Assembly: GCF_041381155.1 (NCBI RefSeq)
Contig: NC_091143.1
Coordinates: 27,150,331-27,214,330 of the forward strand
Direction of reading: 5' to 3'
DNA: 64,000 bases
Origin: Argopecten irradians
Lineage: Eukaryota > Mollusca > Bivalvia > Pectinida > Pectinidae
Shown here: piece after piece, positions 8,401-60,096 of the stretch
How positions within the stretch are numbered: position 1 is the stretch's first letter
How the letters are laid out: every line of letters begins with the position of its first letter
The notes under the pieces: generated by a model
The model's database searches: none
What the model was told of the DNA's origin: nothing
The model's input: the letters and a program-made list of their open reading frames with translations, nothing else
Position numbers and translations under genes: made by a program

Positions 8401-9856
8401 ACATTGTTGATATCTCTAACCATCTCATTGTATCCATTGATTATATATATTGAAGTTATTTGAAAATGTCTGATTTATTGGTGTTATTTTTTGTCTTTCT
8501 AATATATGCATGTACATATTCTTTAATTCATGGGAGATACACCTATTAATCATTTGTATTTTCTGATATTCTACGTAATAAGATACCAAAGACAAGTATA
8601 GAAGATGTATGCCTATATATCAACTGTACTCTACAATATTCCATGTAATAAGATACCAAAGACAAGTATAGAAGATGTATGCCTATATATCAACTGTACT
8701 CTACAATATTCTATGTAATAAGATACCAAAGACAAGTATAGAAGATGTATGCCTATATATCAACTGTACTCTACAATATTCTATGTAATAAGATACCAAA
8801 GACAAGTATAGAAGATGTATGCCTATATATCAACTGTACTCTACAATATTCCATGTAATGAGATACCAAAGACAAGTATAGAAGATGTATGCCTATATAT
8901 CAACTGTAATATTCTATCTAACCAAAGACAAGTATAGAAGATGTATGCCTATATATCAACTGTACTCTAACCAAAGACAAGTATAGAAGATGTATGCCTA
9001 TATATCAACTGTACTCTACAATATTCTATGTAATAAGATACCAAAGACAAGTAAAGAAGATGTATGCCTATATATCAACTGTACTCTACATTATTCTATG
9101 TAATGAGATACCAAAGATGATAATATAGTGACTGTGACCTGGAATTTTGTATACATTTCTCCTTCTGTTTGCAGGAGATTAATCAACTAAATATGAGATT
9201 GAATGACATGGCAGTGAAGGAAACGGCAAGTTCTAGTCTACACGGTCGAATTCAGGTAAGTGGGCTACTGAAGGTTAAACAGGACTATTTCTCAGTTAAT
9301 TACGAAAGAGAATTTTATAGTTTATTTTGGAAAGTAAATTGGTAAGATGGAAATGCAGTTTACTGGAGTAAACTGTATTTTTTGCCAAATCTAAGAATGA
9401 AAATACGTTGCTTTGGCCTATGTGAATGATGTTACATGTTATCTTTATCACATTAACATACCTGGCCCCAAGATCATGAGATAGTCTTAAGTATAAATCA
9501 GTCATAAGTTTAGACTTAACCAATCACAGATGAGGTTATAAAAATTGCATCTTTCCTAATTGGCCGAGCAAAAATTGAAGTCTAAGACTGTTTCATAGTT
9601 CTTGGGCCTTGTTCCCAATCCCATTACATTTTGTATTTCATTTATTTCTTTTTTCCAGACATTAGAAGATGAAAACCAATCACTAGCCCTAAAGGTGGAG
9701 GATTACCATCGGCAGTTACAGGAGTGTAGAATGTCACATGATCAGGACTCGAATGACCTCCTAAACTTACAGGACCAGCTTGGCTCCAAAGTGACAGAAA
9801 TGTACGAAATACACGAACAGATTATATCATTAATACGCAAGGAGTCCAACAGTTGA
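2407..9856 (+). CDS. homer: Homer-family postsynaptic scaffold protein, 3' seven exons (5' partial)
   Basis: Homer proteins bind PPxxF-type ligands (group I mGluR, IP3 receptor, Shank) through an N-terminal EVH1 domain and tetramerise through a C-terminal coiled coil. Exons: 2407-2538, 4444-4629, 5060-5202, 5720-5876, 6535-6654, 9175-9255, 9659-9856 (TGA), all with AG/GT borders and compatible phases (1017 nt, 338 residues). The first exon gives the second half of EVH1, with [13 protein letters not shown] and ANTVYGLGF nearly as in vertebrate Homer; the next starts with the last EVH1 helix ([11 protein letters not shown]) and continues into a Gly/Ser/Thr-Pro linker. Exon 4 carries the family signature [19 protein letters not shown]. 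Exons 5-7 are Leu/Glu-rich coiled coil ending SLIRKESNS. About 58 N-terminal residues, including the start, lie left of 2407 and probably outside the window. Introns contain a 70-bp minisatellite, two dispersed repeats and a possible 27-nt microexon. Family identity is secure; the paralogue is not assignable. Confidence 0.95.
4021..4037 (+). repeat. (ATT)n microsatellite after AATAAA
   Basis: A short TAT/ATT trinucleotide run directly follows AATAAAGTC. A polyadenylation-like motif followed by a simple-sequence tail is what the 3' end of a small retroposon would leave, but no body of an element was recognised upstream. Confidence 0.4.
4797..4978 (+). repeat. Dispersed repeat (GATAATCTGGA type)
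   Basis: The segment begins with ACAGTGAACCCTTGATAATC and ends with GGATTATCGGGGGTCCACTT. The two ends are imperfect inverted repeats of each other (GGACC/CCTCGATAATCTGGA wording). A related degenerate copy lies near 23688-23800. This looks like a small palindromic interspersed element in a Homer intron. Family not assigned. Confidence 0.45.
6735..6870 (+). repeat. Dispersed repeat family R1, copy 1
   Basis: About 135 bp that recurs, diverged but collinear, near 10030-10175 and 20195-20345, all on the plus strand. Shared words are TTCTAAGA/TTCTCAGAAGA, AGATCTT, AGAAGAGCTACAAATT, GGAAGTT, TTCTAGAAGT and GGGCAAATTGAGTTA. It lies in a Homer intron. No coding capacity or terminal repeats were seen; a SINE-like or MITE-like origin is possible. 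Confidence 0.5.
7236..7262 (+). CDS. homer: Candidate 27-nt cassette microexon of Homer
   Basis: Inside the intron 6655-9174, a 27-nt open segment encoding RFNIRKILQ is bordered by a good acceptor (ACTTTTTCAG) and a consensus donor (GTGAGT). Both neighbouring exon junctions are phase 0 and the segment is a multiple of three, so inclusion would add nine residues to the coiled coil without a frame change. No transcript evidence was available, and a chance match of short splice motifs in AT-rich DNA is possible. Confidence 0.35.
8571..9118 (+). repeat. 70-bp minisatellite in a Homer intron
   Basis: Tandem units start at 8571, 8641, 8711, 8781 and 8851 with an exact 70-bp period. Each holds AAGACAAGTATAGAAGATG and CCTATATATCAACTGTACTC. 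After 8880 two units carry internal deletions, then two near-full units follow, for roughly 8.5 copies. Low divergence between units points to recent amplification or ongoing homogenisation. The array ends about 55 bp before the exon at 9175. Confidence 0.9.
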
Positions 9857-14704: not shown

Positions 14705-15855
14705 ACAAGAGATCCCAGAGGGATCTTGGCACCCACCAAAGAATGATCTATGTCTGACAATGGAAAGATGGATCTTTTCTCTACTTTTAAAACTTTTTCA
14801 AACATACTACACATAAAATTTGAGAATGATCCATTCAATACTTTCTGAGAAATAGCGACATCAAACTTTTAACTATCAAAATCCAAGATGGCTCCTTGTT
14901 GGCCATCTTGTCGATCAATCAGCCCCAAATCGCAACATGCACAACTAGGGCCCTAGGGGAACCTACATGTGAAATTTGAGATAGATCCATTCAATACTTT
15001 CTGAGAAATAGAGATAACAAACTTTAACGATCAAAATCCAAGATAGCTGCTGGTGGCCATCTTGTTGACCGATTGGTCCAAAAATGCAAAATGCACAACT
15101 AGGGCCCTAGGGGAACCTACATGTGAAATTTGAGACAGATCCCTTCATTACTATCTGAGAAATAGCGATAACAAACTTTATCAAAATCCAAGCTGGTGGC
15201 CATCTTGTTCACCGATTGGTCCAAAAATGCAAAATGCACAACTAAGGCCCTAGGGGAACCTACATATTAAATTTAAGAAAGATCCCTTCAGCACTGAAAA
15301 ATAGTGATAACAAACCTTAACTATTAAAATCAGAGATGGCTACCTGGCGGCCATCTTGTTTTTCCGATCAGCCTCAAAATCTATATGGCACAACTAAGGA
15401 CCAATGGAATCCTCCATGTGAAGTTTGAACAAAATCCCTTCAATAGTTTTCAAGAAATAGCGATTACAAACTTCACTGCCAAAATCCAATATGGCCCCAG
15501 CAGCCATCTGGTTTTACCGATCAGCCTCAATAACTGTATGGCACAACTAGGGACCAAGGGTACCCTCCATGTGAAGTTGGAACAAAATCCCTGCAGTAGT
15601 TCTCAAGAAATATTAATAACAAACTTCAACTGCCAAAATCAAAGATGGCTGCCTGGTGGCCATCTTGTTTTTTCAATCAGCCACAAAATCTGTATGGCAC
15701 AACTAGGGACCAAGGGGACCTTCCATGTGAAGTTTGAACAAAATCCCTACGGTAGTTTTTAAGAAATAGTGATAACAAGCATTGTTTACGGATGGACGAC
15801 GGACCTTGGACTCGGGGCGATTTGAATAGCCCACCATCTGATGATGGTGGGCTAA
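14705..15855 (+). mobile_element. Pearl-like (Helitron/HINE-type) tandem-core element, copy 1
   Basis: The left end has AACAAGAGATCCCAGAGGG with a small GATCCC/GGGATC hairpin. The body is about six or seven diverged units carrying ATCAAAATCCAAGATGGC, GGCCATCTTGTT, ACTAGGGCCCTAGGGGAACC and CTGAGAAATAGCGATAACAA. Near the right end is an ACGG-rich stretch (GGATGGACGACGGACC), then the inverted repeat AGCCCACCATC/GATGGTGGGCT followed by CTAA. Mollusc pearl elements are known to have this plan: about 160-bp core repeats plus an ACGG-type microsatellite; hairpin-CTRR ends are known from Helitrons. The open frame at 15385-15762 is a by-product of the tandem units. It lies between the converging Homer and TRMO genes. 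Confidence 0.8.
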
Positions 15856-35707: not shown

Positions 35708-38700
35708 TTAAATTTCTTTTTAGGTGTAATAAATCAAAATACTATATATACTGTAGCGAAATACTTTCATTCTTATTTACTTTCAATATTACTATCACAC
35801 CTTTTCTCAACCCCATACTCATGAAGATAAATCTTTTTTAGCCATTCAAAGTGGATTTTTTATTGAAATAAATTCATTGAAGCGGAACATTTTTTTTCCT
35901 TCGTGATAATTTAAAACTTTATTATTAGATGTTATAAGATAAATTATTTGTTGTTCTGCCAAGGTATTTCTTTCTTAAACAAGCTATTTATGGAATATAT
36001 GCCACTGATTCTACCCTGGTAATATATATGTACAAAATTGTCCCTGTAGACCAAACAACCCACCTAAAAATTTCCTGGGAGAGGACATCTTTCAGCCAAC
36101 AGTAAGTAATTTCAAATTGATTCATAGAATAAAGAAGAGTTGGAAGAACTTTCATGACATAGCTATTATATAGAATAAATGTTATATTCTAAAATAAAAC
36201 TGAAAATTGTTGTTCAAAAAGTATTATTTCGGCATTTTCTTTCAGTTATACTTACTTGTCAAAATATTCAGATTTAAGATGATTTGTAGCATTTTTTAGC
36301 CCACCATCATCAGATGGTGGGCTATTCAAATCGCCTTTCGTCCGTGGTCCGTCGTCCGTCCGTCCGTCCGTCCGGTCCGTTAACAATTATTGTTACCGCT
36401 ATTTCTCAGAAAGTACTGAAGGGATCATTCTCAAATTTTATATGTAGGTTCCCCTAGGACCCTAGTTGTGCATATTGCATTTTGGGACCGATCACTCAGC
36501 GGCCATCTTGGATTTTGATAGTTAAAGTTTGTTACCGCTATTTCTCAGAAAGTACTAAAGGGATCTTTCTCAAATTTCATATGTAGGTTCCCCTAGGACC
36601 CTAGTTGTGCATATTGGATTTTGGGACCGATCGCTCAACAAGATGGCCGACCAGCGGCCATCTTGGATTTTGATAGTTAAAGTTTGTTACCGCTATTTCT
36701 CAGAAAGTACTGAAGGGATCTTTCTCAAATTTCATATGTAGGTTCCCCTAGGACCCTAGTTGTGCATATTGCATTTTGGGACCGATCGCTTAACAAGATG
36801 GCTGACCAGCGGCCATCTTGGATTTTGATAGTTAAAGTTTGTTACCGCTATTTCTCAGAAATTACTTAAGGGATCTTTCTCAAATTTCATATATAGGTTC
36901 CCCTAGGACCCTAGTTGTGCATATTGCATTTTGGAGCGATCGCTCAACAAGATGGCCGACCGGCGGCCATCTTGGATTTTGATAGTTAAAGTTTGTTACC
37001 GCTATTTCTCAGAAAGTACTGAAGCAATCTTTCTCAAATTTCGTATGTAGGTTCCCCTAGGACCCTTGTTGTGCATATTGCATTTTTGGACCGATCGCTC
37101 AACAAGATGGGCGACTGGCGGCCATCTTGGTTTTGATAGTTAAAGTTTGTTACCGCTATTTCTCAGAAAGTACTGAAGGGATCTTTATCAAATTTCATAT
37201 GTAGGTTCCCCTAGGACCCAAGTTGTGCATATTACATTTTGAGAAAGATCGGTCAACAAGATAGCCGACCGGCTACCATCTTGGATTTTGATAGTTAAAG
37301 TTTGTTGCCGCTATTTCTCAGAAAGTACTAAAGGGATGTTTCTCAAATGGCATATGTAGATTCACCTAGGACCCTAGTTGTGCATATTGCATTTTGGGAC
37401 CGATCAGTGAATAAGATGGCCGACTGGCGTCCATCTTGGATTTTGATAGTTAAAGTTTGTTACCGCTATATCTCAGAAAGTACTGAAGGGTTGTTTCTCA
37501 AATGTCATATGTATGTTCCCCTATGACCCTAGTTGTGCACATTGCATTTTTAGACTGATCGGTCAACAAGATGGCCGCCAGGCAGCCATCTTGTATTTGG
37601 ATAGTTATCACTATTTGTCTGCAATTACTGAAGGGATATCTCTCATATTTCATGCATAGTTTCCCCTTGGGCTTTAGTTGTGCATAGTACCTTTGGAACT
37701 GATTGGTCAACAAGATGGCCAACCTGTCGCCATCTTAGATTTCACAGCTGATTCTCAGAGAACAATAAAGCGATTTGTCTTAAATATCATATGTTGTATA
37801 TTTGAAAAAGTTTGAAAAGCAGGGAAAAGATCCTTCTTTCCATTGTCAGACATAGATCATTCTATGGTGGGCGCCAAAATCCCTCTGGGATCTCTTGTTT
37901 CCTTTCAATAGAGGCCAGTATAATTATTTTAAGTTCTGTAAATTTAACAAAAAGACATTACATGTACTTGTATTCCATTGCATTCAGAATTCTTAAGTCT
38001 ACAATGCACAATCATGTTTTTCAGTACCGGTATGTTATGTAGATTTATGGTTGGTTCTTGATCAAATTTCCGTTGATATAGATCTGAAATCTAAACGGTC
38101 CTTTCTGAATGTGTGAAATCCAAGTTGCAAAGAATAAACCATAACTTTTATGAAACGAAATGATAATAAATTTGTTTATTTTCTCTGATGCCTAACAGTG
38201 GCTTAGCAACTTAGTAAGTAATATAAGGAGAAAGTGTGTAGACCAGAGAGTATATAACCAGGTGTTGAGCATGATCACTTAACTTATTTGTGTCATATTC
38301 TATAACTTGTCTATAATCTTAATGACGTTAGAGTAGAGGAATGGACATAATGGGTGTTACATGACAACTCAGTTGTTAAGGGTGTTTTGCCAATGAAGAA
38401 GATCTTAGGTGCTATGTTCAGTATTCCCTACCGATGATAGGATTTTGATAAACAGGCCGGTCTGGGCTGCTGTAGGTAAGACAATGTTAAACAAACTAGT
38501 CGAAGATTAAAAGAGTCTTAAACAAGTGGTTAAGACAAGATTATGTATTTAAATACATGTCTGTCTATTTACAATTAATAAATCAAATGTTAATATTGTC
38601 CTTGTATAGACTTTAACAGTTAGATTTATATTTGTTTCCTTATTAACTGAATATGATCATTTGTTAGTATGTGTGTTTGTTTGCAGCATGAGATGTTGTA

Positions 38701-41700: not shown

Positions 41701-44700
41701 TTTGATTTTGATTCTGTTTCCCTTATAGAACGTTTCTGTTTGTGAGTTAACTAATGTCTTTGTTTTAATATTCTATGCATGCTATAACACATTGTGGTTA
41801 TCTTGAATAACTAACTTTTACAACATACACATATATTTTGTTCAAGATTTCTACAAGAATATATTCTCACTTATTGGTGACACTTGAATTTAATATATCT
41901 CTATATTATGTTATTTTCAAAATAGAAATTAAATTCTGGGCTTGACTTAGATCTAACCAGGGGAGATTTAAAGTGATATGTTTGAAATTTTCCATATTTT
42001 GTTCTTTCTTTCTTCTTTTGAAGGGGAGATGTTATAGAAAGATATGTTAAGGCAAACCAATTTTATTAATTAGTCTTATACTAATTAACATAAAACACAT
42101 ACCACCTCACTTTGTTTCATTTATCTTAAACTTCATCTGTCATATTCACAACAAATATTCACTCCGTTGAATACTTATTCACTATTGAACATTGCCACTG
42201 ATTTTATGTCGATTGCTGTAATTTTATTTCATTTTTCTCATTGTTTCAGGCCAATGTAAGATTCTTTCAGTACTTATGTTTTTGTCACTGACAACTTGAC
42301 GTACGTGGAGTAACTGTGTCATGTGTCAACTACGTTAAAGTTTACTGACAAGCTTACAGACTTAATCTTTCATATATAGACAGGGATTTATCATAACCTT
42401 TACTTCCATGATCAAACAAATTCATGACAAGATGAAATAACCTTTAGATTAAAAAAATAAATAAAAGACAGTGGTTTCCAACGACCTGTAGGTATTCCAT
42501 GATTTATAGGTGTGTCAGTTCAACCTACAAAAAGAGAAATTTCTGAAAAATATGTATACCCTAAAAAAAAACATAGTTTTACATCATAAAATACCAAATC
42601 ACACATATTTTATCATTCTTTATATATCACATTCCTTTTCGAGGACTTCAATAAATAAAAGTAATACCATGTTTACAATATGATGAAATTAGAAATGTGT
42701 GTCACCTTACTTCAAAATTATATTCAATGTTGAACTCTGATGTACAATGAAACGGAAGTGTCACTCAGATATCTATTTGATGTAATACTCATAAGTTCTC
42801 CTTTAATAGAACAAAGTTTCGTACATTATAATTTTTATGAAAAGTATTTCTGTCTTAATTAATTAAGAAATTTGAATGAAAGGTTTTGATTACATTAGCT
42901 CGTTTCTGAAAGCATTTTGATAAATCCCTGATATATGTATCAGTCTTTCTGTGTAATAGGATTGGGGAGTAGCATTGAGTTGTCTTTGTCAGATTTTATG
43001 GGTTCTGGAATTCAGATTTTATGAATAAAGTGTTTTATTTTAACATCTTAGAATTGTACCTGTCCCTGATAACGGTAAAATGGATTGTGTTAACGTTTTG
43101 TTGACTGGTGTGAGGTATTTGTATACATGACCTTGTTAACATAATTGTCCAACATTTAAATGTCGAACGTAAGATGACCAAAACTTTTTTGAAAATTGCT
43201 CAACTGAATTATAACTGAAATATTAAGGTCAAAATATAGTACCAAAGATATAACTGTAAATTCAAGGTTATCGTCTGTTTCAAGATGGTGATCTAGTAAC
43301 TCTCATAATTAAAGGTCATTTCGGGGTCAAGGTCATCATACAGTAAGATTCTGATTATTATACACTCAACCTTTAAGGTCAAGGTCATTATCTATTGAAG
43401 GTAAATATGATGCTTCCTAGTGTAGGTGATTGTGTGGATATGTTGTTTATAGCTAGTGCACATATATGGAGAAGATTTTTGCTAGTCAAATTGTTTGTGT
43501 AGTGGTATACTGGTGCCAAGTATGTAATTCATTTTCTCCTTCACTGCCAGTTCTCATAATCATAATGACATTTTTTGTTATCAGTGTTAAAAAGAGAATA
43601 CATTTTGTTGCTTTGTAAAGATAAATTTCTTAATTTCAATTTAAAGTTGTTAATATTTTACATACCTCAGTAGTAATCATAATATGTTATTTGAAAGTGT
43701 TAATTATATATACAATTGCCAAAATGTTACAGTAATTTCGTAATTTCATATCATATCATGTACGTCTCATTATCAAGATCAAAAGCAAATTATGATATAC
43801 TTGACAGCGTAAAATAGCTGATGATATAAAGAGAAAATGAAAATGTTTTACTTTAGATTCTATCAATTTTATAACTAGGAAAACGACTATCTTGGTGCCA
43901 CATTCCACTTTTTCGATTCCGATGACGAAGATGAAGAAGATGAGGAGTCGGCGGCCCCTCCAATATCAATCTACACACACTCCATTCCTCAGCCGAGTCA
44001 CATGACACTGTCAGGTGTACCCAAACCTCCGAAACCACACTCCAGCAAAGTTTCAGAAATGAGGTATGAAGGTCTTTTTTTTTTAACTTTTGGTTTTACT
44101 AGATACAGTAAAACCTGTCTATATAGACCACCCAATGGGAAAAGGTCTTAATACAAAGATCAAAATCTACTTTTTAGACTCCGGGTGGTCCTCACACAGA
44201 GGTTGTAACTAAGATAGGTTTTCCTATTATGCATGGTGTCAGCAATTCATTGATATTCAATCACAAAATTCAATGGAAGAATTTTGCAATAAGGATGCAT
44301 TGTGTTTACATAATTATTGTCTTCAAATCCCTTTCACAATAATTTTAGGATTACCTGATATAATAAACGCATGTATATAAAGTCCCGACCATAATTTTAT
44401 CTTTAAAGTTTGTGATAAATAACAGCATGTTTTTTTTGTATGGATTTTTTTCCAAGTGCATTGTATCATATGGTGCATCATCTCTATCACTGCATCTGAA
44501 AATAAGATAAATAAAAAAAAAGTGACATTGTGGTAAAGGGCTAGGAATTTTATCACATAATTACCTTACAGGAAACGCCATAAGGGAGAGGTGTAAGTAT
44601 ACTGGTAGTTGTGTAGATTTTCGCCTAGATACATCGCTAATCGGCAGCATCATTTTATCATCCTGATGTTTCCATCTCTGTCCATCATTGCTATATGTAG

Positions 44701-47700
44701 TGTGCAAATTTAGGAGTAAACCCAGCAAATTTTGGCTTACCGATAGTAGCATTGGTCATAATGTGCATTTCTTTACATAGAATACACTTGTAGTTAATAA
44801 TTAATGAATTTTAATATTTTCATATAGATCATTGTCTTGTTCTAGATATCAGAATTAGCTGTAGAATGTAGCTTAAAGTATCACTTTTAATTTATTTATT
44901 TTAATAAATGACATCTTTGATTGTTGTCAAAGTTATTAACTGCAAAAATAAAAACAATGAAGTGGGGATTTTTTACGAAAAAAAAAATAAACAGAGATGG
45001 GAGATGGGAACTCTGTCTGCATTAAAGATTATTCAAATTTATTTCAGTTGATTTGCATATGCATTGCACATATGCTTCTTAAAATTGAATCAGACAGTCA
45101 AGCTCTGACTGTATTTGGTGAAATTATAAATATTTCAGCACAAAAGACCACCCGACCATCCATTTTTGTATGTCATATTTCAATATACAGTAGAAAAATC
45201 TTCCCGGGGATAAAAATAAATTATCATGTAAGCTTTAATTGTTACTGTGAATGTTGGCATCATATATGTATGTAAATTATGTTAATTCTGCAGTGCTCTT
45301 AACAACAGGTGATGGAAAGTTTGAAAATTGCCATGGCTGACCATTTTATTTTTTTCGACAACTTATTAATAATGATCATTTTTATGAAAAAAGAGGGCTA
45401 TGTTGATAAAGTGTGACCCGTTTCTAGTTTGGTGGTGGTGGCAGAAAGATAAAGGTGGCAATATATAGCTTTTTATCTCAGGGGCTTGAGTTTGAAACAC
45501 ATATCCTGACCCTAGGTTGATTAGTTTTTATTTGATACTCTGGGTTTCAAATTAATCAGGACTTTAATGTGAAGTAAATAATAAAAAAAAAGACAGCAAG
45601 TGAAACTACCAAGAAATGAAATTGTATCTTACATCTTTGTGTTACCCATCAATTCACCTTATCAGCGATAGATTATTTATTCACCCCTTCATTGTAGATG
45701 ATACTTGTTATTTATGTTGTAAGTTAAAGACATTAAGCATTAAGAAAATAGCCCAAAGTTTTTATTTTCTTTTCAGTATGAGTAAGTTCTCTAAGAACGG
45801 GATTTACTTTACCTAACTAATATTCATGAACAAAATGATATATGAAAAACATTGTTTAACTTCTTATTCAGATTTTTTTTGTTTAGTTTTGAATGAATTA
45901 GCTTTGACACTTTCAGGGTTGTGCAAAAGGTCTCATTAAATGAAAATAAACGTTGACTATTAATCACCTGGTATACACTGATTTTAATTTAAAACTTATT
46001 TTAATAAAAAAGCGATTTAAACATTTCCTTTTTTATTTTATTTTTCAATTCCCCCAGATATTTTTACTAAAACATATAATGATACGAAATTCCTAAATAA
46101 AGCCTGCCTAAACAGTTAATCATTTTATGAGTTTTGTCCATTTATGTCATTTCTAGGTTTTGTATTTGTTACTGAATATCTAATTAGATTTGTGATCACA
46201 TTTAACAGGGAGCGAGAGAGAAAGATTAATGAACTGAAAGAAGTAAAGAACAAATATGAAGAAGGAATGTGGAATGTTAACACAATTCTTATGGGAGGCC
46301 TCGGCAAGGACCCAGCACTTATAGATGGTAAGCGATTGTTACTGTAGGGGAGGTCTAGACAAGGACCCAGCACTTATAGATGGTAAGCGATTGTTACTGT
46401 AGGGGAGGTCTAGACAAGGACCCAGCACTTATAGATGGTAAGCGATTGTTACTGTAGGGGAGGTCTACGGCCAGACCACAGCACACTTATAGATGGTAAG
46501 CGATTGTTACTGTAGGGGAGGTCTAGACAAGGACCCAGCACTTATAGATGGTAAGCGATTGTTACTGTAGGGGAGGCTAGCAAGGACCCAGCACTTATAG
46601 ATGGTAAGCGATTGTTACTGTAGGGGAGGTCTAGACAAGGACCCAGCACTTATAGATGGTAAGCGATTGTTACTGTAGGGGAGGTCTAGACAAGGACCCA
46701 GCACTTATAGATGGTAAGCGATTGTTACTGTAGGGGAGGCTGGCAAGGACCCAGCACTTATAGATGGTAAGCGATTGTTACTGTAGGGGAGGTCTAGACA
46801 AGGACCCAGCACTTATAGATGGTAAGCGATTGTTACTGTAGGGAGGTCTAGACAAGGACCCAGCACTTATAGATGGTAAGGGATTGTTACTGTAGGGGAG
46901 GTCTAGACAAGGACCCAGCACTTATAGATGGTAAGCGATTGTTACTGTAGGGGAGGTCTAGACAAGGACCCAGCACTTATAGATGGTAAGCGATTGTTAC
47001 TGTAGGGGAGGTCTAGACAAGGACCCAGCACTTATAGATGGTAAGCGATTGTTACTGTAGGGGAGGTCTAGACAAGGACCCAGCACTTATAGATGGTAAG
47101 CGATTGTTACTGTAGGGGAGGTCTAGACAAGGACCCAGCACTTATAGATGGTAAGCGATTGTTACTGTAGGGGAGGTCTAGACTTATAGAGGCTGTTACT
47201 GTAGGGAGGTCTAGACAAGGACCCAGCACTTATAGATGGTAAGCGATTGTTACTGTAGGAGGTCTAGACAAGGACCCAGTAAGCGATTGTTACTGTAGGG
47301 AGGTCTGACAAGGACCCAGACTTATAGATGTAAGCGATGTTACTGTAGGGGAGGTCTAGACAAGACCCAGCACTTATAGATGGTAAGCGATTGTTACTGT
47401 AGGGAGGTCTAGACAAGGACCAGCACTATAGATGGTAAGCGATTGTGTACTGAGGGGAGATGTTACTGTAGGGAGACAAGGACCCAGCACTTATAGATGG
47501 TAAGCGATTGTTACTGTAGGGGAGGTCTAGACAAGGACCCAGCACTTATAGAATGGTAAGCGATTGTTACTGTAGGGGAGGTCTAGACAAGGACCCAGCA
47601 CTTATAGATGGTAAGCGATTGTTACTGTAGGGGAGGTCTAGACAAGGACCCAGCACTTATAGATGGTAAGCAATTGTTACTGTAGGGGAGGTCTAGACAA

Positions 47701-50700
47701 GGACCCAGCACTTATAGATGGTAAGCGATTGTTACTGTAGGGGAGGTCTAGACAAGGACCCAGCACTTATAGATGGTAAGCGATTGTTACTGTAGGGGAG
47801 GTCTAGACAAGGACCCAGCACTTATAGATGGTAAGCGATTGTTACTGTAGGGGAGGTCTAGACAAGGACCCAGCACTTATAGATGGTAAGCGATTGTTAC
47901 TGTAGGGGAGGTCTAGACAAGGACCCAGCACTTATAGATGGTAAGCGATTGACAAGGACCCAGCACTTATAGATGGTAAGTGATTGTTACTGTAGGGGAG
48001 GTCTAGACAAGGACCCAGCACTTATAGATGGTAAGCGATTGTTACTGTAGGGGAGGTCTAGACAAGGACCCAGCACTTACAGAAACTTCCCTCAACTATA
48101 GGTCGAAGTTCATTTTTGTTGTATTTTTAAGTTATAGATCATACTGTTACTAGTGACATAAAACTTTTTTTTTGGGTGCAACTTTTGCAGACCAGGAATC
48201 AAGATGGCTGCCACGGCATGTAATTGGTCAAAATTGAACAAAAAGGAACAAGGTTGAGAATACAAATCTAATACAATTATAGGCATTGCTGTGCCTAATA
48301 TATTAATTTTAAATAATGTGACTTTTCAAAAAGCATTTTTCTTCTGCGAAATAAATTTATTTTAATATTGGTAAAATAATGTCATGCCATCATTCAGGGG
48401 ATGTTACTCTTGTCAAATTAGGCTCTGTGGAGATTGGGGGAAATTTATGTGACGGCACCGTCACAATTAGATCTTGTTTAAGCTAGTTTTTGTAGATTAC
48501 TGATCTTTGACAGGTAAAAACAGGTAAACACCTAAAACTCTGTGCACTCCCACATTGTACCTGCCAGATTTAAGATAATTTTGCCATTTTCTAACAATTT
48601 AATACTATATTTTCTATTTCTTATACAGAAGATGATGATGCTTCCTCCAAAAGACAAAAATCAGCGGACACTACAAAGTCTGCCAAGACTTTACAGGAGC
48701 GTGCTGCAGCTCGCCACTCAGCAAAACTACAGGAGAAAACATCAACCAGGTATAGTGACTATCTTATACTCACACTACCAAGCATGGTAATGTTTTATCT
48801 ATGGTAACAGTATCTAGGAGCACACAAGTTTGCATGGTCACAAAAAAAAGGATTAGGAAAAATGACCATATCAATATCATGCCTATATATCCAGATTCAC
48901 ATTGTGATGGTCAAAGTTTCATATATACACTTGTCGGTATATCTTTCCAGTTATTTTAGTTTATAGTTTTGACAGATATTTTTATTGATGCTGTCATTAT
49001 TGATGGGAGTGGGTGTGGGGGGGAGGGGTCATACAGGGTTGACCACATCCATCCTGTCACATTCCAATTTTCATATGGAGGTGGGGATATTTTTGACTTG
49101 CAGAAACTTTGAGTTTTCAATCTGTTGATTATTTTTTGGACAGAGATTTTATACAGTCCAGACAGTCGAGACAATCTAAGGTGACGTCTGTAACTGGTAC
49201 CATGAGCAAAATGGACACGGAGAGGTCAGAAGAGGTATGTGGCTGTTAGATATAATAGAAATAGTCGAAAGTTCTCCCTGAAATATTTGATCTATGTCTT
49301 TGTATAACTCTTTCATGCATAAATTTCATGTATATTTACAACTTCTGTGAAAATTTATGAATGGCTTATCTTTGGTTAATATTTTTTTTTTAACTTAGAC
49401 CTTTTTCATATGATACCATTAAACAATAAATTTTGTCATAAATGTAGTTCATTTTTTTCCAGACTTTCAGTGAATTTTTCGGGATTAAATGATAATCAAT
49501 TCGTTTATGTGTTACTTTCAGAGTGCAGGAGCAGATGCACCTCTGTCACCACAGGATCGATTGGAAAAAGTCTGGAAATCGCTGGAAATGCCGGACTCTC
49601 ATCGACTGGATATGGCTATCAAATACAGCTGTAACGAGTTCTACTCACGGCTGTTTGAGGTATCCTAATCTGGTATTAATTCCTGTCCTCAAAAAAATGC
49701 ATGTAATCTTTTTCCAATTCAAATAGCTAAAATTTCTGAAATAAAACCAAATTCTTTTTTTGTATTCTGTTTAGGTGATTGACCGCTGGGAGAAAGTAAC
49801 AGAATTCATATTAAAAAGAGAAGATTTATTGGCAAAACTGGAGAAATTTGAACGTAATGCCTCAGATCCAAACAGATTTTTTGAGAAAGGTAAAGTACAG
49901 CATCTATGTCCATCATGAATTTAACCTTGTCAATTTATTCTACATGTAAAAGTTAGATGTAGGGTTGAGACCTGGTTTGCATTACATGTGTGTGCTCTTG
50001 TACATAATCCTGTCTTGCATATAGCATGATTTACCACAAAAATTTATATTACCAGGTACGTAATACCAAGGCTATCATTTTACTTAGGCAAGGTATATAC
50101 CATAAATAGGTCACTGTGACCTACTTTTTCACCACTGATTAAAACAGAAAAGCTTTCTTAAGGTTACACGACTTGTCATTAGATCTGGATACTAAGGTCT
50201 TTGATTTACCTCCATAAAGTGGCTATCATGGTAAGAATAAGGCACTTTGACCTTTATTTTAACCTTTGACCTACATGCAACAATAAGGGGTCTACCCCTA
50301 GTATGTGAAAGGAGTCTTTCAAAAGGTATTTTGTGTGTGCATGGGCATTTTCTTGGATATGATAAAATTATATACTTGTATATATGATGTTGGGATAGAA
50401 AAGTGGAATATTTTGAATTTTTGTGAATAGCTTACTTATAAGTGTTTTTTACTCCCATACAGGTAACAAGGGCAGTTCAGTGAAACGACTACAGGAGGCC
50501 AAACAGAGAAGTTTCTATTATAAGGCAAGTCCAAATGAGAAATACATCTATACTTCATTAAAAACTATATGTCATGTGGAATATTGAATATTGTGAAAAA
50601 ATTTCAATACCACAGTGATTATTAATATTGTAGAATAAACGTTGATCAACTACAATGCAGTAGATTAGAATGGTGTTATCTGCTTCTGTAATTACTTAAA

Positions 50701-52152
50701 TATCATTGCAGTTCAACAATTGATGGTGTTTAGATGTTAATGCTATATCTACTTGCTGGTTCATAGATAGACCCTGTGGGTTATCAGTGCAAATAAAAAA
50801 AATCATGGTACATGTGTACTGAAGCGACCTTAGTGACCTGTCACCTTTCACCCTGAATGTGATTATCAAGCTGTAATAAACGCCATCCATCATCAGTACC
50901 AGGGTCTCTCTGTAGATTAGTACACTACTAAAAATGCAGGCCCTCATAATTCTCATGTCAGCTCAGATAGACTTACCTCTATGTCCATATATAAATGTCA
51001 GGGTATTTAGGTCACATTGATGTTTTGCTTCATCAGCAGTTTTAGCAGCTGTAACTATTAAGTTACTAAATGACCCAGATCATATTTTCACCATAATTAT
51101 GCCATCGTTATGAAATGAAGTGGGGATTGACATATAAATTGTAATATCTCATCAGTATCTCATCAGTCCAACATCATTGGAAAGCCATATTTGGCTTATA
51201 TAGATATATGGTAATATTTACATACATTTTGTAAATGGTTAAAAGTTATACATGTGATTGCGTTTACATATGTATATATAACAGTATTCATGTCACCAAT
51301 GCCCATACCATCCTAGCCTATCAGTCCATTCCTATTACGGTATGTCTCGTCTGGCTTTGATATATGGAGTGATTTTGATCTATCATTTACTTTCCTTTGT
51401 TTCATTCTGTCAGTACAGTACTGATAAAATGAAACAAAGGGAAGTAACTCTGATAGATCTATATGGGGCATGTGTGTCTTACACTTCACTTCATCCATGA
51501 TAAGAGGAGCACCTAGTGTTAGCCCCTTTGTGTCCTCTCCCATCCTGTCCTATTCTGATGCCAAATAGAGGCGGGGCATTTATGTCATATGTCCTTTATT
51601 TCTTTTTCTTTTTTTCTTATTAATAAATATACTAATAATAACTCTTTTTTTCTACAGAGAATTGACTATTACGACCGTGAGATTAAGATTGAGATAGATT
51701 ACATGACACAACACTTTCAAGATATTATCACATATAAGGTAAGTATTATTATTCTGTATGGTTGGTTATTTTTGCAGGAATTATATCTTTGGGATTTCAT
51801 GAGACCTTGTTTTGAATAATTTTATCGGCCATGTTTTGAGAATTGAATGGGTCAAATAGACCTTGAAAGCCAGATAATAATTTCTCTACATCTATATATA
51901 CATGTAATTTCTGTCCCAAGGGCTGATCATATGAGGATAATTTCCTAAACATGTACTTTCTGTCCCCAGGGTCGGTCGTATGAGGAGAAGATGAAGTGGG
52001 ACAGGATAGAGATGCTGTATTGGTTACAGGAGGAGAGGAAACAAAACGCTCTAAAGTACGAGGCCATGATGAAACAGCAGGCAGTGCCAATGAAGGTCAA
52101 GACTGCTCACCTTGACCCAATAACACCGCCTAGTACAGCACAAGTTAAATAG
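30342..52152 (+). CDS. CCDC87: CCDC87-like coiled-coil protein, 27 exons (N-terminus incomplete)
   Basis: CCDC87 is testis-enriched in mammals and linked to sperm function; its biochemistry is unknown. Exons: 30342-30413, 30546-30642, 30967-31048, 31437-31581, 31760-31831, 32294-32384, 32802-32850, 33146-33188, 33466-33606, 33766-33906, 34045-34145, 34450-34510, 34652-34753, 35067-35183, 35394-35554, 36050-36101, 39713-39895, 40948-41364, 43879-44063, 46209-46327, 48629-48749, 49144-49234, 49522-49659, 49775-49889, 50463-50524, 51658-51738, 51970-52152 (TAG). Every phase agrees; 1073 residues. Landmarks shared with vertebrates: RSRSMPQLQIGE, DPVTVKNLDKNLFLGEEITE, ERVINPKLRS, WWKSTVTSDDYMKYL, MWNVNTIL, PDSHRLDMAIKYS, DPNRFFEK and IEMLYWLQEER. 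The acidic/charged middle is divergent. Odd: a 139-codon extra exon, one GC-AG intron after 50524, and a minisatellite grown from the donor at 46327. AATAAA at 52205 suits polyadenylation. Confidence 0.93.
31103..31126 (+). repeat. Short telomere-like GGGTTAGGG run
   Basis: GGGTTAGGGTGAGGGTTAGG and a following GGTTGG sit at the head of the SINE at 31120. It is about three imperfect TTAGGG units, far too short for an interstitial telomere, and may simply be a decayed SINE head. Confidence 0.4.
31120..31328 (+). mobile_element. tRNA-derived SINE in a CCDC87 intron
   Basis: Plus-strand copy of the family at 19446. A degenerate A-box region (GGTTGAGTTGTTAAGAAGTC) and B box (AGAGTTCAAATCCAATGTGG) are followed by TCTCCAGGTACTCCGGC, TTTCCTCCACC, TGTCCCTGGTTGTTAATAG and the AT-rich tail AAACTAAATAAACC. 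It lies between the exons at 31048 and 31437. Confidence 0.8.
32085..32233 (+). mobile_element. tRNA-derived SINE, decayed, in a CCDC87 intron
   Basis: The tRNA-like head is hardly recognisable, but the body is clear: TTTTCCTCTGGGTACTCC, CCTTTCTCCACC, ACCTGACACATCCTG, CCCTGGCTGTGAATTGGAC and AAACAGATAAACTG. It is more diverged than the copy at 31120. Confidence 0.65.
35651..35706 (+). repeat. Long poly-T tract in a CCDC87 intron
   Basis: About 55 bases that are almost all T with a single C. It could be the tail of a minus-strand retroposon, but no element body was recognised to its right. Length is prone to assembly error. Confidence 0.7.
36296..37902 (-). mobile_element. Pearl-like tandem-core element, copy 3 (longest)
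   Basis: This copy is inverted relative to copies 1 and 2 and lies in the CCDC87 intron 36102-39712. The plus strand begins with TTAGCCCACCATCATC/GATGGTGGGCT, then the microsatellite GTCCGTCCGTCCGTCCGTCC (36342-36371), which is (ACGG)n on the other strand. Eight clear core units follow, with GTTACCGCTATTTCTCAG at 36392, 36531, 36685, 36841, 36995, 37149, 37303 and 37459: a period of about 154 bp, plus one or two degenerate units. Each unit carries AAGATGGCCGACC/GCGGCCATCTT, itself a palindrome. The far end is GATCCCTCTGGGATCTCTTGTTTCC-like, matching the start of copy 1. Low divergence among units suggests it is younger. Confidence 0.85.
37903..39712. other. Remainder of a long CCDC87 intron
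   Basis: AT-rich intron DNA after the pearl-like element. No exon or repeat is recognised; the open frame 39211-39393 (minus) is treated as chance. Confidence 0.5.
40948..41364 (+). CDS. CCDC87: Large symmetric extra exon of CCDC87 (139 codons)
   Basis: This 417-nt exon is phase 0 at both ends and open throughout, from GKLVPGVLEF to NLSNVTIVQ. It lies between the exon ending DDYMKYLSTT and the one beginning ENDYLGATFHFF. In vertebrate CCDC87 the equivalent text runs straight through (KYL...TDFLHVIFQ), so the exon is an insertion relative to them. It is Ser/Pro/Leu-rich, without a recognised domain, and looks disordered. It could be skipped without frame change, so it may be alternatively spliced. 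Confidence 0.75.
41365..43878. other. Long CCDC87 intron without recognised content
   Basis: AT-rich. Short AAGGTCA / TCAAGGTCAT words recur near 43230-43400, the same vocabulary as core-repeat family R2, but no full unit could be delimited. Confidence 0.45.
44105..44215 (+). repeat. Dispersed repeat related to 1952-2095
   Basis: Starts ACAGTAAAACCTGTCTATAT, then GACCACCCAATGGG, and ends GACTCCGGGTGGTCCTCACA. GACCACCC and GGGTGGTC are inverted repeats. It lies in a CCDC87 intron just after the exon ending at 44063. Confidence 0.4.
46294..48081 (+). repeat. CCDC87: 55-bp minisatellite made from a CCDC87 exon end and its 5' splice site
   Basis: The unit is GAGGTCTAGACAAGGACCC, AGCACTTATAGATG, then GTAAGCGATTGTTACTGTAG, with a 55-bp period (donors at 46327, 46382 and on). 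The first unit is the real 3' end of the exon 46209-46327 (coding GGLGKDPALID) plus the first bases of its intron. About 32 copies keep GTAAG; a cluster of shortened, diverged units lies at 47165-47480. Reading past the first donor meets TAG at 46345-46347, so use of any later donor would truncate the protein. Units are nearly identical, so the array is recent or homogenised and copy number is likely to vary. Confidence 0.95.
50525..51657 (+). other. CCDC87: GC-AG intron of CCDC87
   Basis: The exon ending FYYK at 50524 is followed by GCAAGT rather than GT, and the downstream exon 51658 (RIDYYDREIKIEI) is preceded by TTTTTTTCTACAG. With AAG before it, the GC donor matches the strong consensus that known GC-AG introns require. 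Moving the border to a nearby GT would break the frame. The intron also holds the palindromic element near 51355-51470. Confidence 0.8.
51355..51470. mobile_element. Palindromic MITE-like element in a CCDC87 intron
   Basis: CTTTGTTTCATTCTGTCAG and CTGATAAAATGAAACAAAG form a near-perfect hairpin around TACAGTA (51390-51437). Flanks extend the symmetry: TTGATCTATCATTTACTTTC on the left against, reverse-complemented from the right, AGATCTATCAGAGTTACTTC. It has no coding capacity. AGAGTTACTTCCC resembles the AGAGTTACCTCCC word in the element at 12900. Confidence 0.65.
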
Positions 52153-55599: not shown

Positions 55600-56358
55600 A
55601 CGCCCCATGGGCCTTAATGGTTATGATCATCTGACTATTAATAAAATATATGAGAGAACTGAAATACACAATAAGTTGTTTAAAGATTGTAGCATTTTTT
55701 TACCCTTGTGACTTTGAATGAAGATCAAGGCCATTCATTAGAACAAACTTGGTAGCCCTTCATCCCAGCATGTTACAGGCTCAATATGATTACCCTGGGC
55801 GTTTTGGTTATTGAGAAGAAGTCATTTAAAGATTTTAGCCTTTTTGACCCATGTGACCTTGAATGAACGTTGAGGTCATTCATTTGACCAAACTTGGTAG
55901 CCCTTCATCCCAACATGCTACAGGCCAAATATGATTACCCAGGTCCTTTTGGTTATTGAGAAGTCATCTAAAGATTTTAGCCTTTTTGACCCCTGTGACT
56001 TTGAATGAATGTCAAGGTCATTCATTTGAATAAACTTGGTACCCTTCATCCAAGCATTCTACAAGCCCAATATGATTACCTTGGGCCTTTCTGTTATTGA
56101 GAAGTTAAAATATTTAACCTTTTTGATACCTGTGACCTTGATTGAAGGTTTAGGTCATTCATATAAATAAACTTGGTAGCCCTTCATGTTGGCATGCTGT
56201 GGGACCAATATGAGTACCCTGGGCCTTTCGGTTATAGAGAAGAAGTCAATTGAATGAAAAGTTTACACATGGCGTACGTGCGTACGATATACGACATAAG
56301 ATGACAGATGATACATGATGACGATAGGTCATCCAGACCCTTCGGGTCAAATGATCTA
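55600..56358 (+). mobile_element. Core-repeat family R2 element with terminal hairpin
   Basis: Four units carry AACTTGGTA(GC)CCTTCAT at 55747, 55891, 56033 and 56170, a period of about 137-144 bp, with TGACCTTGAATGAA, GGTCATTCATTTGA and GAGAAGTCA in each. The left flank has GACGCCCCATGGGCC. The right end has the hairpin GACCCTTCGGGTC (56336-56348) and CTAA at 56355. Tandem cores ending in a hairpin plus CTRR resemble non-autonomous Helitron-type elements, with the same plan as the pearl-like copies but unrelated sequence. No coding capacity. Confidence 0.6.
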
Positions 56359-56785: not shown

Positions 56786-57916
56786 TTAAGATTTTGTTTG
56801 GTCTGTGATGAACTCAATCCTCCTTGTTACCCACTTAAGTTCCTCCTCCATTTTGTGTTCCTTGTAGAACCCTGCAAGTTTCTGGTATCTTTCAACGATG
56901 TCAAATCCCACCAATGTCTGTAACTTATGTAGATCAACAGGACACAGGTGCATGGGCTGCCTGAAATCTTCAGACAAATGGCCAGAGCCGTTCATACAAC
57001 AGTCATAGTATATACAATGGTCAATGCCTAACAGGTGGCCAATTTCATGGACAAGAAGCTTGCAACTACGTTGAAGAATAAGTTTTCTACGCTCACTAGC
57101 ACTTATGGTGCTATCACATGTGATATCATACCATTTCTCAATGGAGAAACTCAGAGCGGGATCATACCGATTGAAACTAAACATTGCCACACGATGGTTG
57201 CCAGCAGCCATTCCAGCAACAAAGAGGTCAGTGTCATCTCCATAGAGATCATACATCGTCAAACCGACCATACAAAGGGCGTCTGTTGGAATGAGGCTTC
57301 GCAGGCGTAACAAGGTCTCGTCCATTTTTAACTGTATACGGTTTGTCCCTGGATGATATCTGGAGTTTATTTCAAATTTTCTCTTTCGAGAACTTGATCT
57401 TGCACCATGTGTTGGTCGATCTTCTGGATTTTCTGTCCAGAAAATTTTATGATTCTCTTCCTCAAGAGCAATTCCAGGTAGTTCAACCACAGGTAATCCC
57501 AAATATATCTGAGCAAAATCTCTCAAAGATTTGAATTTGACACAATTTTCACCACTGAAGTCTCCAACAGGTAGAAGGTATATTTTGCCATCTGGGTATT
57601 TCTCCAAAATGGTTTTGCCTTTGCTAACAAATTGTTGAGGCATGTATTTCAGCTTTCTTTTTGATAGCCATGGACATTGTCGCTGGTAATCACTGTACGA
57701 TTGTCCTTCCTCGACATACTGAGCTAACCAGTCATCAATACTGGTAGGCCGGGGAATCGGTGGGAAAAAGCCAAACCCTTTAAAAGACTGTGGGTCCAAT
57801 GCTGGAATCATCGGGGAAGAGCCAATTGCCTTTCTTTTTTCCTGTTCGGAAGGTATTTTGAAACCAACAGCAAATGGCAAATACCTATTTTGCTTCTTTG
57901 ATTTTTGTTTTGGCAT
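56786..57916 (-). CDS. AMZ2: Archaemetzincin-type zinc metalloprotease (AMZ1/AMZ2-like)
   Basis: Archaemetzincins are gluzincin/metzincin-like aminopeptidases with an HExxHxxGxxH catalytic zinc site and a second Cys-rich zinc site. This single-exon frame (376 residues) has HEIGHLLGIDH at 290-300 (His290, His294, His300 ligands, Glu291 catalytic), then Cys301, Cys306 and Met308, and LCPVD at 324-328. Upstream blocks VGLTMYDLYGDD and VAMFSFNRYD and downstream GFDIVERYQKL match AMZ1/AMZ2. Odd: the last residue of the usual CPxC is Asp328. The ATG at 57916 is preceded by 21 open nucleotides back to a good acceptor (ATCCACAG at 57938), so coding could begin in an upstream exon. AMZ1 versus AMZ2 is not resolved. 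Convergent with CCDC87. Confidence 0.92.
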   Translation of the reverse strand: MPKQKSKKQNRYLPFAVGFKIPSEQEKRKAIGSSPMIPALDPQSFKGFGFFPPIPRPTSIDDWLAQYVEEGQSYSDYQRQCPWLSKRKLKYMPQQFVSKGKTILEKYPDGKIYLLPVGDFSGENCVKFKSLRDFAQIYLGLPVVELPGIALEEENHKIFWTENPEDRPTHGARSSSRKRKFEINSRYHPGTNRIQLKMDETLLRLRSLIPTDALCMVGLTMYDLYGDDTDLFVAGMAAGNHRVAMFSFNRYDPALSFSIEKWYDITCDSTISASERRKLILQRSCKLLVHEIGHLLGIDHCIYYDCCMNGSGHLSEDFRQPMHLCPVDLHKLQTLVGFDIVERYQKLAGFYKEHKMEEELKWVTRRIEFITDQTKS

Positions 57917-58129
57917 GATTTCAGGTGATAGAGCTCTCTGTGGATAAAGAATAAAACAACATTTTATAAATTTTCCTAAAAAAACAATTTACATTAAAAT
58001 ATATGTCATTTCAATTGTTAAGTGTGTTTCCTAATTGGAATATCAATTTGTCAAATTCCATATTTTATTTGATTGGTTCAAAATCCTAATTTGATCCTCG
58101 ATACTCCAGGGGTTACTTTCACTGCCGTT

Positions 58130-58994: not shown

Positions 58995-60010
58995 TTGACA
59001 TCATATTTATTTTATATAAATTTCTTTTTATGTTTATAAATTTCTTTTTATAATGTTGACATCATATTTATTTTATATAAACTTCTATTATAATTATAAT
59101 GTTGACATCATGTCTATTTTACATGAACTTTTTATTATAATGTTGACATCATGTCTATTTTATATAAACATCTTATTATAATGTTGAAATCATGTCTATT
59201 TTATATAAACTTCATGTTATAATGTTGACATCATATCAATTTTAGTATAAACTTCTTATTATAATGTTGACATCATATCTATTTTATATAAACTTCCAAT
59301 TATAATGTTGAAATCTTATCTTTTTTAATAAACTGATATAATATCTTTTTATTACAAAGTTGACAATGTGTATGTACTGTAGCTACATTGTACTCTTGTA
59401 GCAGAAAAGATATATATGATATCTTTTCCGCTACAATAGTAGTTATATGTACAGCACATACATTGTACATGTAATACGGGTCTTAAATATTAACCACTTT
59501 ATTTATAGATTACTTCCATGCCTAAATTTAGAGAGATAAAGAAAATGCTGACAGTGCACTGTATTTGAGACAATGTAAATTTATCAGACAGTTGCTAGGT
59601 ATTGTGGGCGATCAATTTTCTAGTTACCTTGCAATGGGTGTATAAGAAGTCGGCAATATCAACACATTGTTTGCAAAGAACATAAGAAGTAATCATTGAC
59701 CCTTACCAAAAGGAACCTAATTCAACAGTCAAATTGAGCTGAAAACGTCTGCATTAGTTGTTTTAGTTATAATGTTGACATCATATCAAATTTAGTATAA
59801 ACTTCTTATTATAATGTTGACATCATGTCTATTTTATATAAACTTCCTATTATAATGAAAACATCTATTTTATAAAAACTTCATATTATAATATTGACAT
59901 CATATCTATTTTAGTATTTTATAATAACTTCTTGCCATCTATTTGGTATAAACTTCTTATTACAATGTTGACATCATATCTATTTTATATAAAGTTCCAA
60001 TTATAAATTT
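58995..60010 (+). repeat. About 41-bp tandem array (TTATAATGTTGACATCATAT)
   Basis: Units of TTATAATGTTGACATCAT(A/G)T-CTATTTTATATAAACTTC recur about eight times at 58995-59330 and about five times, interrupted, at 59765-60005. The two blocks flank the first copy of the larger duplication, so the array was probably duplicated together with it. Confidence 0.8.
59396..59436. repeat. Hairpin-forming palindrome, copy A
   Basis: TTGTAGCAGAAAAGATAT and ATATCTTTTCCGCTACAA pair with one mismatch around ATATG. Outside it, ATGTGTATGTACTGTAGCTA and TATGTACAGCACATACATTG add imperfect pairing, for a palindrome of about 110 bp (59364-59475). No gene product is implied; it may be a MITE remnant or a cruciform. 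Confidence 0.85.
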
Positions 60011-60096
60011 GAAATCTTATCTTTTTTAATAAACTGATATAATATCTTTTTATTACAAAGTTGACAATGTGTATGTACTGTAGCTACATTGTACTC

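Follow-up and report, generated by a model that had tools for sequence, protein, structure and literature searches.

In a 64,000-nucleotide stretch of the genome of the scallop Argopecten irradians (NC_091143.1, positions 27,150,331 to 27,214,330, forward strand; hereafter the window, whose own positions are used below), a coding exon runs directly into a 55-bp minisatellite that repeats the end of that exon together with the start of the following intron. The array has the anatomical features of a mirage, the name given in amphioxus to minisatellite-like tandem duplications of intron-exon boundaries, at both 5' and 3' junctions (PMC3087553, PMC3902484). We conclude that it is very probably a tolerated by-product of tandem duplication, in which the donor on the exon side is used and the remaining copies are spliced out as intron. 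Here, we describe the array, its unit structure, its consequences for reading frame and stop codon, and the recurrence of similar arrays at other genes.

Anatomy of the array and reading frame of the host gene

An earlier reading of these letters (the original prediction) had proposed that the end of an exon and its 5' splice site were amplified about 32 times and that the copies were joined directly to the real exon, and both points were confirmed. Using Tandem Repeats Finder, we detected a head-to-tail repeat of period 55 at 46293-47951 (29.8 copies, score 2586), with further rows up to 48083, and wrap-around alignment divided 46293-48083 into 34 units or part-units containing 32 GTAAG sites. 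On the plus strand, this word occurs 0.85 times per kb in the window outside the array, compared to 32 times in the array's 1.8 kb. The features concerned are the following.

43879..52152, plus strand: 3' half of the host gene, nine exons whose joined frame gives 364 amino acids and then a stop
46209..46327, plus strand: 119-nt coding exon, the last 35 nt of which are array unit 1; acceptor TTTAACAG upstream, phase fitting both neighboring exons, within the 364-codon frame
46293..48083, plus strand: 55-bp tandem array with 32 GTAAG donors in its 34 units or part-units
46328..46333, plus strand: first (genuine) 5' splice site, ATG/GTAAGC, called from the reading frame
46345..46347, plus strand: in-frame TAG in the intronic half of unit 1, met by transcripts bypassing donor 1
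47170..47518, plus strand: units 17-23 (unit alignment), indel-rich and substitution-free, possibly consensus error or slippage
48050..48083, plus strand: last part-unit, unit 34 (sequence and alignment)
48099..48478, plus strand: interspersed repeat sharing the intron with the array and lying 15 bp 3' of it, called from matches elsewhere in the genome
48629..48749, plus strand: next exon, with acceptor CTTATACAG at 48620-48628, placed by phase

The context ATGGTAAGC holds 28 of the 32 GTAAG sites, and half of the units (17/34) are identical to the consensus, letter for letter. The consensus consists of 35 nt of exon end (GGGAGG...GATG) followed by 20 nt of intron start (GTAAGC...TGTAG). The G at the seam is ambiguous, and the split is thus 34-35 exonic and 20-21 intronic nt; the division of 33 to 34 exon bases plus 21 intron bases given in the original prediction was correct in principle and is adjusted here. 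Unit 1 is the genuine end of exon 46209-46327 and differs from the consensus by three substitutions, all within the exonic half. At consensus index 12 the exon's G is kept by the proximal units 4 and 9, which fits a growth of the array out of the exon. At the other end, the 3' border does not coincide with a unit boundary, since unit 34 breaks off within its exonic half (CACTTACAGA) and lacks a donor. The interspersed repeat beyond it has at least 42 further genomic matches at 82-92% identity (40 of 271 candidates scored). The 55-bp array was located at one place in the single assembly searched, and genome searches found no second gene copy or paralogous locus.

The nine exons recognized in the host gene (plus strand; 43879-44063, 46209-46327, 48629-48749, 49144-49234, 49522-49659, 49775-49889, 50463-50524, 51658-51738, and 51970-52152) form one open frame of 364 codons and a stop, using donor 46327/46328 and acceptor 48628/48629. 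The latter is the acceptor that had been predicted, and its position is supported by phase. Of the eight introns, seven have GT-AG borders and the remaining one has GC-AG (50525-51657, donor AAG/GCAAGT, acceptor TTTCTACAG), the reading frame requiring this GC donor. The encoded protein weakly resembles MAP65/PRC1, as judged from a match to Pfam PF03999 (25.0 bits, E 1e-5) that lies below the curated cut-off of 26.9 and from matches to PRC1 chains in PDB (E 2e-4 to 5e-4); a PDB search with a 110-amino-acid piece gave no match. The name CCDC87, under which the gene had been introduced, was not confirmed, since no CCDC87 entry was among the results from Pfam and PDB.

As had been predicted, only the first donor gives the full protein. 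Donor 1 continues the frame into 48629, and the frame from each of the other 31 donors (46382-48030) is terminated at the same TAG (46345-46347), giving one identical truncated product. The argument that had been offered for this truncation, namely that 55 is not divisible by three, does not hold: the unit length is irrelevant because every later donor reaches this TAG inside unit 1. As the acceptor is separated from the last junction by 608 nt of exon, RNA spliced at a decoy donor is predicted to undergo nonsense-mediated decay. Local folding predicted an accessibility of 0.005 for donor 1 and a median of 0.006 (range 0.000-0.046) for the others, so a choice of donor 1 would have to rest on position. 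RNA structure that masks the decoys but leaves donor 1 open was rejected, since predicted accessibility is low for all 32 sites, donor 1 being no exception.

Relation to known duplications of splice sites

In amphioxus, mirages are known from Adh3, the globin genes Gb6 and Gb9, and troponin C, with similar repeats in PGBD5; many units carry splice signals, concerted evolution spares the edge unit, units in Adh3 are 10-72 bp long, and regular splicing is reported to be undisturbed (PMC3087553, PMC3902484). Mirages are possibly general in cephalochordates (PMC3087553). The scallop array resembles them in that its unit spans an exon-intron boundary (35 + 20 nt, the exon being backed by phase across nine exons), in its head-to-tail, minisatellite-like organization (period and score as above), and in its homogenized inner units, from which edge unit 1 is set apart by its three substitutions. 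It differs in its host, a scallop, which places it outside the narrow, cephalochordate-bound sense of the word, and in its 32 donors in near-identical 55-bp copies, whereas the two Gb6 haplotypes have units of 150-160 bp, 3 in one and 6 in the other. A further difference is that recurrence across unrelated scallop genes was estimated from a sample. The scallop host is also reflected in the octopine dehydrogenase on contig C9, which differs in about 12 of 386 columns from PDB 3c7a, an entry from Pecten maximus; a COX1 search had no match in the assembly. Searches of the open-licence literature found no report of boundary minisatellites in a mollusc among the titles and abstract openings listed, nor in passages of PMC3862624 and PMC12460157, which suggests, as far as these searches reach, that this is a mirage-type array in a new phylum.

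Intron 7 of human F7 contains donor-bearing repeats of 37 bp in variable number; the first of them holds the genuine 5' splice site, and the most upstream 5' splice site alone is described as used in the normal condition (PMC6627357). The scallop array has the same arrangement of donor-bearing tandem repeats with the genuine site in the first unit. However, gene, unit, and phylum differ, and splicing was tested in F7, whereas donor use in the scallop is predicted from the sequence. Intron gain via tandem duplication of AG/GT sites has also been proposed, with duplicated splice signals as the raw material (discussed in PMC3087553). The scallop gene likewise has duplicated splice signals within a gene, but no new intron has formed in it, and its frame requires the original splice.

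We propose that a short tandem duplication across the exon-intron junction, followed by expansion through slippage or unequal exchange, would have generated the 55-bp minisatellite. The exon-side copy, held by coding selection, would have retained the working donor, leaving the other 31 donors intronic. The spliceosome would then pick the most upstream donor, paired with the 119-nt exon by exon definition or by 5'-to-3' scanning, and the whole array would be removed together with the intron. Any mis-splicing at a decoy would lead to the same TAG and presumably to nonsense-mediated decay, and the array would be neutral or tolerated rather than adaptive. Further arrays of this kind are present at donor and acceptor junctions of the scallop genome. 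The original prediction had offered a tolerated decoy field as one of two readings, and it is this one that the analysis supports.

Boundary arrays elsewhere in the scallop genome

Arrays of this type were found at exons of other genes, and two of these exons, of an enolase and of a guanylate cyclase, are securely identified. In the enolase gene, a 41-bp array with 44 GGTAAG in 5.45 kb begins at the end of a 29-codon exon, which was identified by Pfam (E 2.5e-9) and also by a PDB match. The exons flanking the array in the guanylate cyclase gene join to give a match to Pfam Guanylate_cyc (E 2.4e-24), and over 69 columns the joined exons align without gaps to an atrial natriuretic peptide receptor; a 38-amino-acid piece alone gave no PDB match and was matched after joining to the next exon. 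Since these exons join across the array without a gap, it is again donor 1 that fits in this gene. An array on the acceptor side was seen at about 1195200-1195830 of contig C1 (within L076 520-1000 and L077 1-320, about 1195220-1195920), where the end of an intron is repeated before the exon DHGCKDW...; its unit consists of the intron end and the first codons of the exon (DHGCKDWVFVDE...), head to tail, and the last copy is the real exon. Exons of the same gene were observed to recur about 1.3 kb further on (L052), one of them carrying a donor-side array, here called D.

For a sample independent of repeats, 40 exons were taken by coordinates from 142 kinase-domain rows and 350 bp were fetched on each side, giving 80 exon edges, a nominal number since the edge of a match need not be the edge of an exon. 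At 5 of these 80 nominal edges (2 donors and 3 acceptors; 95% interval 2-14%) we found an array in which the outermost copy forms the exon edge itself, as listed here.

L113: donor array, 39 bp, 9.5 copies in view
L133: donor array, 95 bp, 2.3 copies
L116: acceptor array, 46 bp, 8 copies
L140: acceptor array, 85 bp, 2.5 copies
L127: acceptor array, 50 bp, 2.1 copies

In three of these five arrays the copy number is below three, and the arrays at L142 and L134, which end short of the junction, were excluded from the count. Small as the sample is, it suggests that boundary arrays are common in the scallop genome. The same 28 kb contain nine wholly intronic arrays (period ≥20, score ≥80), which predict 1.2-2.4 junction arrays compared to the 5 seen (P 0.007-0.10, depending on the assumed unit length).

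This excess would be expected if mutation linked to splicing or transcription made splice junctions the preferred seeds of tandem duplication, an explanation that we regard as possible though unlikely. Genome-wide motif counts point in the same direction, with 60558 GGTAAG triples (gaps of 20-50 bp) compared to 21791 for the reversed word (2.8-fold), and with 10953 pairs of AGGTAAGT spaced 28-58 bp apart for 52563 single occurrences, compared to 1383 pairs for 45462 for its reverse. However, there were 2628 pairs for the permuted control AGGATAGT and 4126 for the reverse of that word, so that controls vary threefold, and the donor GGTGAGT and the acceptor-like TTTACAG exceeded their reverses by just 1.9-fold. 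Furthermore, pair and triple counts are a lead only, because they are dominated by long arrays and do not reflect the number of arrays, and the test at exon edges rests on n = 5 with P up to 0.10. Slightly more tentative still is the broader proposal that junctions in the scallop are preferred birthplaces of minisatellites, with several per cent of exon ends amplified through transcription- or splicing-coupled duplication, and that the genome offers a natural collection of cases in which the spliceosome chooses between identical sites, up to dozens at a time.

The 5' edges were read for 17 donor-motif arrays, these being all among the matches listed for the start of contig C1 (6 + 1 + 10, from three listings), and a coding test was applied at the array edges (p<0.05 against 491 null sites, with 0.85 passes expected among 17). 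Five arrays passed (A, D, E, L067, and L071; binomial 0.0012), compared to none of the six scored control-motif arrays; the control loci L063 and L064, lying wholly inside an array, were unscored. Two of the failing arrays, L057 and L075, nonetheless end exons by eye. Domain matches were below cut-off for the exon of array D (V4R, Pfam, E 0.012) and for L073, which fails the coding test (laminin G, E 0.0035). The peptides of L057, L067, L071, and L075 matched no Pfam family, nor did the L075 exon have a match in PDB, and these exon calls are thus based on splice signals and reading frame. The best-scoring frame of L071 in the coding test differs from the frame read by eye. At L051 (C1:1098001-1099500), a 48-bp array whose AGGTAAGT unit also holds the inverted words ACCTAA and TTAGGT lacks an exon at the edge, which shows that a donor word in an array is no proof of a junction. 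The 5' edges of L043 and L054 (C1:847258 and C1:2348488) are likewise donor-like arrays without a coding exon at the edge, which could be untranslated first exons.

Weighing the explanations, and other features of the window

Several points weigh against reading the array as a tolerated mirage with a working first donor. We infer both the use of donor 1, from the DNA sequence, and the neutrality of the array. Among the donor-motif arrays, 12 of 17 fail the coding test, and many are thus not at a recognizable exon. That arrays prefer junctions to plain intron is suggested by the kinase exons, with weak support. Finally, the copy number of the array may be wrong if its middle is an assembly error.

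The 349 bp of units 17-23 contain 28 indel events and not one substitution, compared to 6 substitutions and 19 indel events in 1354 bp for the other 25 inner units (Fisher 1e-8), although the event counts depend on the alignment and one long deletion may be broken into several. The original prediction had taken these shortened units as a divide between two expansions. This was not borne out, as the middle units have indels without substitutions and the blocks on either side have one common consensus; two expansions are no more likely an origin than slippage or a long-read consensus left unpolished. It is very unlikely that the array as a whole, or most of its copies, is an assembly artefact absent from the animal. 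The indel pattern of the middle units is what such an artefact would leave, but the outer blocks are mostly letter-perfect, with clean single variants in units 6, 9, 11, 26, and 32, and independent arrays of other sequence are found at other junctions, some with just 2-2.5 copies.

Likewise very unlikely is that the array is a device for tuning output, the second reading offered in the original prediction, in which the number of decoys sets the rate of splicing failure and hence the amount of full-length protein: 32 near-equivalent donors, 31 of them leading to a single premature stop and, given the 608 nt of exon ahead of the last junction, to predicted decay, would suit such a device, but the donors are near-identical without graded strengths, their accessibility is uniformly low, the closest studied cases are described without disturbed regular splicing (PMC6627357, PMC3087553, PMC3902484), and similar architecture at the unrelated enolase, guanylate cyclase, and kinase genes means that nothing points to gene-specific regulation.

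Boundary minisatellites were previously known, as far as the sources consulted extend, from a handful of amphioxus genes (PMC3087553) and one human gene (PMC6627357). The arrays at the enolase, guanylate cyclase, kinase, and host genes suggest that such arrays are common in one further phylum at least. Arrays with 30 or more near-identical donors offer a direct test of whether the first site wins by position. Boundary arrays are also candidate raw material for intron gain, and they can mislead gene prediction and the polishing of assemblies with short reads.

Elsewhere in the window, two arrays of about 155 bp, at 14816-15778 and 36497-37607, lie on opposite strands and look related by eye, as one family of minisatellites with longer units. 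Further minisatellites were seen at 8566-9117 (70 bp), 55679-56242 (145 bp), and 59035-60035 (41 bp). By eye, candidate Homer-like exons were seen upstream of the host gene at 2371-9342 (plus strand), and an intronless archaemetzincin-like frame downstream at 56789-57988 (minus strand).

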